From the NCBI RefSeq assembly GCF_016916835.1, contig NZ_JAFFIX010000011.1:1-64000 (forward strand): a stretch of DNA of 64,000 nt, written 5' to 3'. Origin of the DNA: Actinacidiphila bryophytorum. GTDB lineage: Bacteria > Actinomycetota > Actinomycetes > Streptomycetales > Streptomycetaceae. Positions within the stretch are counted from its first letter, which is position 1. The number at the start of each line of letters is the position of its first letter. Below the pieces are notes generated by a model that worked only from the letters and a program-made list of their open reading frames with translations, was not told the origin of the DNA and did no database searches. Positions 6,923-10,100 of the stretch are shown here, piece after piece. The position numbers were made by a program, and so were the translations under genes.

Positions 6923-6969
6923 ACGCACACGGGTCCGCGGCCGGCGTGCGGCCGCGGACCCGTGTGCGT
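6923..6969. terminator. Bidirectional terminator, 20-bp perfect stem
   Basis: Perfect inverted repeat with arms 6923-6942 and 6950-6969 and a 7-base loop (ggcgtgc). It sits between the convergent methyltransferase (stop 6908) and metQ, and its right end touches the first base of the metQ stop codon. There is no U-tract, which is common for Streptomyces terminators. Confidence 0.85.
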
Positions 6970-7838
6970 CAGGCGGCGGGGGTGCCGAAGGCGGGGATGA
7001 CCGCGCCCTTGAAGGTGTCCTTGATGTACTGCTCGACCTGGGGCGAGTTGAGCAGCCTGACCAGCTTCTGCACCCGCGGGTCGCTCTCCCGGCCCTGCTT
7101 GACGACCAGGATGTTGGCGTAGGGGTTGCCCTGCGCCTTCTCGATGACCAGGGCGTCCTTGGCGGGGTTGAGGCCGCCTTCGATGGCGTAGTTGCCGTTG
7201 ATGACGCCTGCGTCGACGTCGCCCAGCGAGCGGGGCAGCTGCGCGGCCTCCAGCTCCTTGAACTTCAGGTGCCTGGTGTTGGCCGTGACGTCGGCGGGGG
7301 TCGCGGTCTGGCCGGTGCCGGGCTTGAGGGTGATCAGCCCGTTGGCGGCGAGCAGGTCCAGGGCGCGGGCCTCGTTGGTGGTGTCGTTGGGCACGGCGAC
7401 GGTGGCGCCGTCCTTGAGCGCGGACAGCGCGGTGACCTTGTGCGAGTACAGGCCCAGCGGTTCGAGTTCGACGTCGGCGACGGACACGAGGTGGGTGCCG
7501 TTCTTCTTGTTGAAGTCGTCCAGGTAGGGCTGGTGCTGGAAGAAGTTGGCGTCGACCTGGCCCTGCTCGGTCGCGGTGTCGGGCAGGACGTAGTCGGAGA
7601 ACTCCTTGACCTGCAGGTCGAGTCCGGCGCTCTTGGCCAGGTGGTCGCGGACGTAGTCCAGGATCTGGGCGTGCGGGGTGGGGCTGGCGGCGACGACCAG
7701 CGGGGCGGACGCGTCCTTGGCGGCCTTCCCGTCGTCCTTGCTCGATGTGCCGGAGCCGGAGGAGCCGCAGGCGGACAGGCCGAGCGCGAGCGCTCCGGTG
7801 ACGAGGGCGGCGGCGGTGATCTTGGTGGTGCTACGCAC
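6969..7838 (-). CDS. metQ: MetQ, D-methionine-binding lipoprotein of the MetNIQ importer
   Basis: 289 residues, NlpA/MetQ family. The signal peptide ends in the lipobox LGLSAC with the lipidated Cys at residue 24, so the protein is anchored outside the membrane. The mature part shows the family signature: VAASPTPHAQILDYV, then VDANFFQHQPYLDDFNK, then AVPNDTTNEARALDLL and PYANILVVK. It should bind methionine (or a related sulfur compound) and pass it to MetI/MetN. The GTG start at 7836-7838 gives VRSTTKITAAAL and has GGAAAGAGG upstream. It is third in metN-metI-metQ with a 62-base gap after metI. Substrate choice within the NlpA family is inferred from the neighbours. Confidence 0.93.
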   Translation of the reverse strand: MRSTTKITAAALVTGALALGLSACGSSGSGTSSKDDGKAAKDASAPLVVAASPTPHAQILDYVRDHLAKSAGLDLQVKEFSDYVLPDTATEQGQVDANFFQHQPYLDDFNKKNGTHLVSVADVELEPLGLYSHKVTALSALKDGATVAVPNDTTNEARALDLLAANGLITLKPGTGQTATPADVTANTRHLKFKELEAAQLPRSLGDVDAGVINGNYAIEGGLNPAKDALVIEKAQGNPYANILVVKQGRESDPRVQKLVRLLNSPQVEQYIKDTFKGAVIPAFGTPAA

Positions 7839-7900: not shown

Positions 7901-8626
7901 TCAGGGGGAGGTGGGTGCGGCGGGCGGCGCGGGCCGCAGCAGCCGCAGCCGGGGCAGCGGACCGCGGCCGCCGCGGCGGGCGGCGGTCCTGGCGGCGAGG
8001 TCGCCGGCCAGCTGGACGAGGGTGACCAGCACGGCGAGGACGGCGACGATCACCCACATGAAGCCGGTCTCGAAGCGCTGGTAGCCGTAGCGCAGTGCCA
8101 GGTCGCCCAGTCCCCCGCCGCCGACCACGCCGGCCATCGCCGAGTAGCCGATGAGCGCGACGACGGTGGTGGTGGCGCCGGCGATGAGCGAGGGCAGCGA
8201 CTCGGGCAGCAGCACCTTGCGGACCACCGTCCAGGTGCTGCCGCCCATCGACTGGACGGCCTCGACCAGGCCGCCGTCGACCTCGCGCAGCGAGGTCTCC
8301 ACGAGCCGGGCGAAGAAGGGGATGGCGCCGACCGACAGCGGTACGACGGCGGCCTGCCAGCCGATGGTGGTGCCGACGACCGCGCGGGTGAAGGACAGCA
8401 GCGCGATCATCAGGATCACGAACGGCAGCGACCTGCCGAGGTTCACCACGAAGCCGAGTGCGCGGTTGACCGCGAGGTTGCGCAGCAGGCCGCCGCGGTC
8501 GGTGAGGACCAGCAGCACGCCGAGCGGCAGGCCCGCGGCGACGGTCACGGCGGTGGACCAGCCGACCATCTTGAGGGTGTCGGTACACGCCTGGGTGAGC
8601 AGCGGGTGCATCTCGGACCAGGTCAC
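7901..8626 (-). CDS. metI: MetI, methionine ABC transporter permease
   Basis: A 241-residue inner-membrane permease with five or six hydrophobic segments. The EAA-type coupling loop is seen at VEAVQSMGGSTWTVVRKVLL, the contact point for the ATPase MetN. The GTG start (8624-8626) overlaps the metN TGA in a GTGA arrangement, indicating translational coupling. The C-terminus carries a short Arg/Pro-rich tail beyond the last membrane segment. Confidence 0.93.
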   Translation of the reverse strand: MTWSEMHPLLTQACTDTLKMVGWSTAVTVAAGLPLGVLLVLTDRGGLLRNLAVNRALGFVVNLGRSLPFVILMIALLSFTRAVVGTTIGWQAAVVPLSVGAIPFFARLVETSLREVDGGLVEAVQSMGGSTWTVVRKVLLPESLPSLIAGATTTVVALIGYSAMAGVVGGGGLGDLALRYGYQRFETGFMWVIVAVLAVLVTLVQLAGDLAARTAARRGGRGPLPRLRLLRPAPPAAPTSP

Positions 8627-9699
8627 TTGGCCACCGCCCGGGTCCTGGCGGGCTCGGGCGCGGCGATGCCGACGTCCGCGATGCCGGCCTCGGCGACGTC
8701 GACCTGCAGGCCCTGCTCGCGCAGGAAGCCGATGGGCACGACGTTGTCCTCGAAGCGGCCGGGCAGTTCGATCCGCATCCGGCCGATCTGCCGCCCGTCG
8801 TAGGTCTCCATGGCGGCGCCCAGGATGGACACGTCGACGTTGTAGGTGCGGGCCAGCTGGGAGATCACCGGGCGGGTCGCGCTCTCGCCGTGGAAGGTGA
8901 GGTCGACGACCGTGCGGTCGGGTCCCGAGGCCTGACCGCCGACCGGGAAGAGTTCGTCGGCCAGTTCCGAGCCGGGGGTGGCGAGCAGTTCCGCCACGGT
9001 GCCGGATTCCACCACGCGTCCGCCTTTCATGAGGGCCGCCGAGTCGCAGACCGCCTTGACGACGTCCATTTCGTGGGTGATGAGCAGCACGGTCAGGCCG
9101 AGCTGCCGGTTGAGGTCGCGCAGCAGCTGCAGGACCGAGCGGGTGGTCTCCGGGTCGAGCGCGGAGGTGGCCTCGTCGGAGAGCAGCACCTTGGGCTCGC
9201 CGGCCAGGGCGCGGGCGATGCCGACGCGCTGCTTCTGGCCGCCGGACAGCTGCGCGGGGTAGGTGCGGGCCTTGTCGGACAGGCCCACCAGGTCGAGGAG
9301 TTCCGCTGCCTTGCGGGCGCGCTCGCGCCGCGGGACGCCGAGGATCTCCAGCGGGAGTTCGACGTTGTCCTGGACGGTGCGCGAGGACAGCAGGTTGAAG
9401 TGCTGGAAGACCATGCCGATGCCGGCCCTGGCCGCCCGCAATGCCGCGGGTGCCCGGTCGGAGCGGCCGGCCAGCGCTGTCAGGTCGCGGCCGTCCACCT
9501 CGACGGTGCCTGAGGTGGGGCGTTCCAGCAGGTTGACGCAGCGGATCAGGGTGCTCTTGCCGGCGCCGCTGCGGCCGACGACGCCGTAGACCTCGCCTTC
9601 GCGCACGGTGAGGTCGACCCCGTCCAGTGCGGTGACCTCGCGGTCGCGTGAGCGGTAGACCTTGCGCAGGTCGGTGGTGGTGATCACAGGAGTGTCCAT
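8623..9699 (-). CDS. metN: MetN, methionine ABC transporter ATP-binding protein
   Basis: A 358-residue ATPase that powers MetI/MetQ uptake. Walker A is GRSGAGKST at residues 42-50, the ABC signature LSGGQKQRVGIARAL and Walker B KVLLSDEATSALD. After about residue 260 comes the C-terminal NIL/ACT-like domain (VVDLTFHGESATRPVISQLARTYNVDVSILGA), which in E. coli MetN binds methionine and shuts the pump when the cell is full. ATG at 9697-9699 is chosen because the ABC domain starts at once. There is no good ribosome-binding site before it, unlike most genes here, which fits coupling to an upstream leader. First gene of the operon. Confidence 0.95.
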   Translation of the reverse strand: MDTPVITTTDLRKVYRSRDREVTALDGVDLTVREGEVYGVVGRSGAGKSTLIRCVNLLERPTSGTVEVDGRDLTALAGRSDRAPAALRAARAGIGMVFQHFNLLSSRTVQDNVELPLEILGVPRRERARKAAELLDLVGLSDKARTYPAQLSGGQKQRVGIARALAGEPKVLLSDEATSALDPETTRSVLQLLRDLNRQLGLTVLLITHEMDVVKAVCDSAALMKGGRVVESGTVAELLATPGSELADELFPVGGQASGPDRTVVDLTFHGESATRPVISQLARTYNVDVSILGAAMETYDGRQIGRMRIELPGRFEDNVVPIGFLREQGLQVDVAEAGIADVGIAAPEPARTRAVAK

Positions 9700-9871
9700 C
9701 GTGGTCGGGCGCGCGGCGGGACGAACCACCGCACAAGGGGTGTGTGCTGCTGGAGCGCGGCGCGGGTCTGCCCGCACGGAGCTTCGGTTTCCGGCGGCGC
9801 GGCGCGGCGCTGCACCGGGGGGTGACGCGGGGCGCGGCGGTCGGGGGCGACGCGCCGCTCAGGGCCTCAGG
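9700..9871 (-). promoter_or_regulatory. Leader between the small Cys peptide and metN
   Basis: 172 bases between the stop of the putative leader peptide and metN, extremely GC-rich with many overlapping GC arms (for example the run of cgccgcgcc motifs at 9798-9810 and 9833-9858). These can form mutually exclusive hairpins, as an attenuator would need. I see no SAM riboswitch core. The idea of a terminator/anti-terminator switch is inference; no exact fold was computed. Confidence 0.4.
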
Positions 9872-9952
9872 TCAGGCACACATTCGACACAGACGACGGA
9901 CACCGGGCGTGGTCGCCTCGGTCGCGCGGATGCGGCGGTTCGTCGTGGTCAT
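9872..9952 (-). CDS. Putative 26-residue Cys-containing leader peptide of metNIQ
   Basis: A short frame ATG (9950-9952) to TGA (9872-9874). It starts MTTTNRR, is Arg-rich and ends RLCRMCA just before the stop. Both Cys codons are TGT and the Arg between them is CGA, all rare in this genome, where TGC and CGC dominate. It lies on the operon strand about 170 bases before metN, which itself lacks a clear ribosome-binding site. Actinobacteria are known to place tiny Cys-rich upstream frames before sulfur-metabolism genes as ribosome-stalling attenuators. That placement and codon choice support a Cys (or Met) sensing role; the function is inferred. Confidence 0.6.
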   Translation of the reverse strand: MTTTNRRIRATEATTPGVRRLCRMCA

Positions 9953-10100
9953 GCGGCCCAGTAAACCAGACATCCCGCCCGGTTCCGAAATCCGGGCAAC
10001 CTGTTCACTATGCGGACACACTGTGCCGTGGGAGCGGGGCCGGAGCGGGCGGGGAGGGGTACCGGATCGGCGGCCGGACGGTCCGTAATAAAGTCGGCGC

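Follow-up and report, generated by a model that had tools for sequence, protein, structure and literature searches.

A leader frame with cysteine and methionine codons upstream of metNIQ in Streptomycetaceae, and a predicted RNA junction within its coding sequence

The metNIQ locus and the region upstream

The window (the whole 64,000-nucleotide stretch of Actinacidiphila bryophytorum DNA analysed here) encodes metN, metI and a metQ-like gene, preceded by a small open reading frame that we refer to as metL. The features of the locus are as follows.

6969..7838, minus strand: metQ-like lipoprotein, 289 aa, assigned from the lipoprotein signal and gene order as read from the sequence
7901..8626, minus strand: metI permease; the best NCBIfam match is the MetI subfamily NF008049 (205.9 bits, cut-off 212)
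8623..9687, minus strand: metN, 354 aa, with a revised GTG start at 9687; the frame upstream of GTGATCACC is not conserved
9710..9735, minus strand: P3 hairpin, TGTGCGGTGG/CCGCCGCGCG, found across relatives and preceding the metN start
9831..9858, minus strand: hairpin downstream of the leader stop, at the P2 position, where Streptomyces has a GCCCCGAA loop
9872..9952, minus strand: leader ORF metL, MTTTNRRIRATEATTPGVRRLCRMCA, with the frame kept under indels (174 loci) and conserved family-wide
9960..9965, minus strand: -10 element TTTACT, at a distance of 7 nt from the leader ATG; conserved, with C at -1 invariant in 136 loci
10002..10018, minus strand: inverted repeat TGTCC-N7-GAACA, preceding the leader start by ~50-66 nt, a likely operator

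The leader runs from 9952 to 9872 as an ATG..TGA frame of 26 codons, in which both Cys codons are TGT and CGA ATG lies between them. A first-pass annotation had described this frame, its TGT codons and the CGA between them, followed by about 170 GC-rich bases before metN. The sequence and coordinates are confirmed, and we counted about 172 bases from the leader to the ATG at 9699.

The best match of metN is the MetN model TIGR02314 (E 6.6e-112, below the curated cut-off). The sequence GTGATCACC at window position 9687 is kept in relatives, and its distance from the preceding conserved block or upstream start candidate varies by single bases, in lengths that are not multiples of three. Thus, metN probably starts at GTG 9687 rather than at ATG 9699. 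This start, 12 nt further in, has a weak GGA 7-8 nt upstream, so the earlier view that metN lacks a ribosome-binding site is not upheld. At locus L006 (genome G031), the sequence following the leader enters the middle of metN, as though the 5′ part of the gene had been deleted.

Between the leader and metN, the P2 loop motif was detected in 121 of 136 loci with few compensatory changes, and the possible hairpin of the window differs from it in sequence. For P3, folding is more favourable with cognate arms (-16.0 kcal/mol) than with swapped arms (about -14 kcal/mol). An intrinsic terminator was looked for in the window and not found.

The spacing of the -10 element suits a leaderless start of the window leader, the transcription start site having been mapped in S. 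lividans only. Further upstream, the strict inverted repeat pattern matched 78 of 136 loci, mostly starting at -57 to -69. Its Streptomyces version is TGTCCG-N5-CGGACA and the window copy is degenerate. From its sequence and position, this repeat is likely an operator. Ten Streptomyces genomes contained zero to three exact operator sites each, only some of them at metL, and a clear regulon was not found among them.

Distribution of the leader among relatives

A DNA search with the region matched 46 of 61 relatives (E ≤ 0.001). The matches in 22 genomes, the window's own counted, were long and covered the leader and its surroundings, and the remaining matches were short. With a peptide profile, 275 of the 294 genomes searched in the order gave a match at E ≤ 0.1; the large majority of these matches had E values well under 1e-4 and came from Streptomycetaceae. 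When 247 genomes of the class were sampled, matches at E ≤ 0.001 occurred in two Streptomycetaceae genera only. Among 119 genomes of the order, 109 had a covariance-model match (E ≤ 1). All of the strong matches are from Streptomycetaceae, and those from other families (E 0.3 or weaker) were left uncounted. By these searches, the leader precedes metN in nearly all Streptomyces genomes searched, and none was seen outside Streptomycetaceae. Not every genome of the window's own genus has a clear leader match.

The leader occurs once in its own genome. Given this, and its conservation upstream of metN in most of the Streptomycetaceae searched, the comparisons indicate that the small frame is genuine, strongly selected and beyond chance. 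The frame and its Cys codons are both conserved among the relatives compared, so the sequence-based refutation that the first-pass annotation had allowed for (loss of either in relatives) fails. We found no NCBIfam family for the leader peptide. As in the case of Streptomyces metL, the window leader is a short ORF directly upstream of metNIQ. It is tied by both the peptide profile and the covariance model to loci L323 and L324, whose peptide is identical to the published metL peptide, MSTTSDRTPATEATTTPGARCMCRRMCAF.

At locus L010 (genome G015), also upstream of metN, the promoter and the part of the leader corresponding to the RNA junction described below are unrecognisable, and the sequence from ATG TGT CGA ATG TGT GCC TGA onward remains.

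Translation of the leader

Across 174 loci, the distances measured from one conserved block to another within the leader are all multiples of three (two diverged leaders lacking a conserved block were excluded from these counts). The control region alone, which holds the Cys and Met codons, has eight length classes, all in steps of three. The lengths from leader stop to metN start, in contrast, are spread over the three phases (51/45/38). Because the leader changes length in steps of three and the gap to metN does not, the comparative evidence indicates that the leader is selected as a translated frame.

The constraint falls on the bases rather than on the peptide, as in 28-codon leaders pS (0.079) is about equal to pN (0.095), whereas metN has a pS of 0.29 and a pN of 0.11. 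The same values bear on the possibility that the leader is an arrest peptide, with the nascent chain sensing a metabolite in the exit tunnel. The recurring C-R-M-C at the peptide end would fit such a peptide, but nonsynonymous changes are as frequent as synonymous ones and the residues outside positions imposed by RNA helices vary. We therefore regard an arrest peptide as highly improbable.

A three-way junction within the coding sequence

The mean fold over 134 species is a three-way junction comprising P0 (nt 7-15/55-63), Pa (19-22/27-30) and Pb (31-39/47-54). Its elements in the window are listed below.

9938..9946, minus strand: 5′ strand of helix P0, ACGACGAAC; mean pair probability 0.6-0.93 over relatives, with covariation
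9923..9934, minus strand: Pa hairpin, from the mean fold and covariation
9902..9922, minus strand: Pb hairpin, ACCGaGGCG-ACCA-CGCCCGGT, from the mean fold and covariation; the closing pair changes from G-C to A-U in five relatives
9893..9901, minus strand: 3′ strand of helix P0, GTCCGTCGT, pairing with 9946-9938; the window has a single A-C mismatch here and its sister L002 has none

Where Streptomyces carries G-C (Ser/Ala codons), A-U (Asn/Val codons) is found in the window's genus. In a structure-free alignment, pairing holds in 96.9% of cells and double changes occur in 18 cells, compared with 4.6 in shuffles; the count of double-change pairs did not exceed that of shuffles in this alignment. 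When diverged members were aligned to the model, double changes occurred in 12 of 21 pairs versus 4.0 in shuffles, and in 10 of 21 versus 3.8 after removal of L284 and L286 (covariance-model matches that do not adjoin metN), with the proviso that a model-guided alignment leans towards the structure and that pair-change statistics ignore relatedness. For the window itself, the junction is only marginally more stable than shuffled sequences (z -1.6 for the 63 nt and -0.07 for the whole leader). The fold is strong in the sister L002 (z -3.7) and in the Streptomyces-type leader L162 (z -4.2). Taken across the family, the coding bases of the leader are thus predicted to fold also into a covarying three-way junction.

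No Rfam covariance model, SAM riboswitches included, matched the leader region. No known riboswitch was found by this search, and the junction appears to be a structured RNA absent from Rfam. A metabolite riboswitch of another kind would bind SAM, Met, Cys or a similar sulfur metabolite, with the overlapping frame merely reporting it. A compact, covarying junction in front of a methionine import gene would fit such a reading. On the other hand, there is no Rfam match, the loops and junction bases vary freely, and the only unpaired conserved core is the UGUCGAAUG segment. Moreover, an RNA acting alone would need no frame, yet the frame is kept. We consider a riboswitch improbable.

Cysteine and methionine control codons

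The segment that follows the junction contains the codons most likely to be read as a signal.

9878..9892, minus strand: control codons CTG TGT CGA ATG TGT (L C R M C); CGA ATG invariant in 104/104 distinct leaders, Cys and Met enriched

Cys makes up 33% and Met 21% of the control region, compared with 1.3% and 2.3% in the remainder of the leader. Thus, codons of the regulated amino acids (Met and Cys) are enriched in the leader, as in amino-acid leader-peptide attenuators. The codon table was anchored on CGA ATG, although none of the 104 distinct leader DNAs lacked this dicodon. Of these leaders, 101 retain the Cys that precedes it, 94 retain the Cys that follows it, and every one has the last Met. 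At least one Cys and at least one Met occur in each of the 134 distinct peptides, so Met is part of the signal as much as Cys. The leader had been proposed as a Cys-codon leader. Conserved Cys codons do precede metNIQ, but with Met equally constant (104/104) the element is better described as Cys plus Met. This suggests one attenuator reading two sulfur amino acids at once.

The first-pass annotation had also stressed the rare codons. TGT is indeed rare, accounting for 0.5% of the Cys codons in the metN genes of relatives, but T-ending codons lie in the 3′ strands of the helices (GGT, GTC/GCT, CGT and YGT) and pairing explains part of their usage. The first Cys site switches with Arg, and this TGT/CGT alternation keeps the pair. 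Once helix pairing is taken into account, only the constancy of TGT CGA ATG seems to be left over from the codon-usage pattern. As a caution, rare codons in leaders may stem from RNA pairing rather than from slow decoding.

Proposed mechanism

From the sequence comparisons, we consider it likely that metL is a leaderless, ribosome-sensing attenuator that reads Cys and Met supply and controls metNIQ. More tentatively, and with somewhat less than even confidence, we propose that the attenuator is dual-coded, the same 60 bases serving as the Cys/Met-sensing leader and as a three-way junction that a stalled ribosome would open, so that a single element would integrate both supplies. The junction ends one codon before the control codons, whose segment directly follows P0. 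A shortage of Cys-tRNA or Met-tRNA would stall the ribosome on the C-R-M-C codons, where it would cover the P0 3′ strand; the junction would be held open, and metNIQ expression would rise. With Cys and Met plentiful, the ribosome would reach the stop and leave, the junction would refold, and metNIQ would be turned down. The effect of stalling and release on the junction is inferred from this geometry, and sulfur-dependent attenuation of metNIQ, as the first-pass annotation suggested, is what we infer from the leader.

As no intrinsic terminator was found, the likeliest output step is either termination by Rho downstream of the leader, which is plausible, or regulation at the level of metN translation. 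Masking the control codons shifts the predicted opening energy by only ~0.5 kcal/mol on average. Leader codons in Streptomyces can mislead: changing the candidate control codons of S. coelicolor ilvB had no effect, according to work cited in PMC1262725.

One specific form of the output step would be a translational switch. The control-codon segment UGUCGAAUGUGC, when free of a stalled ribosome, would pair with the conserved GCAC-UCGACA before the metN start and block translation, and stalling would free the element. UGUCGA and UCGACA are perfectly complementary in 121 of 169 loci, and no other part of the leader pairs as well with the metN start region as the control codons do (-19.6 kcal/mol, compared with -10 to -16.5 for windows elsewhere). 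Masking them raises the predicted accessibility of the UCGACA element from 0.36 to 0.57. However, changes on one side are not matched by changes on the other (63% paired versus 64% in shuffles), and swapping the leader and metN-start partners among species carries no energy cost. Given the absence of covariation, we dropped this pairing as a proven switch, and we consider it unlikely.

Relation to known systems

Canestrari et al. (2020) reportedly described leaderless poly-cysteine short ORFs in mycobacteria, with Cys codons near the end, upstream of sulfur genes. Like these, metL is a short, probably leaderless frame whose Cys codons lie towards its end. Unlike the mycobacterial leaders, it alternates Cys with Met, targets methionine import and overlaps a covarying RNA structure. 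Mycobacterial cys operons are known to carry poly-Cys leaders (PMC1262725). The actinobacterial trp and ilv attenuators resemble metL in having leader codons of the regulated amino acid beside an RNA structure (PMC1262725). They differ in that no intrinsic terminator was found for metL and its best-supported structure lies within the ORF.

The closest counterpart is metL (SLIV_29928) of S. lividans TK24, which was reported in a reannotation as a leader upstream of metNIQ, leaderless by RNA-seq and of unclear termination (PMC8079986). Like the window leader, it lies directly upstream of metNIQ and has no clear terminator. Thus, the leader that the first-pass annotation placed upstream of metNIQ is real, and it had already been described; this core finding is not new. 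In the passages of PMC8079986 considered here, metL is called methionine-dependent and only Met and Thr are mentioned. The Cys codons, the family-wide conservation, the selection on the frame and the three-way junction are additions beyond those passages. In the open literature searched, we found no paper describing the three-way junction, the part played by Met together with Cys, or the comparative evidence, and we regard these as new. With these, a one-line entry for a single species becomes a family-wide, testable regulatory element.
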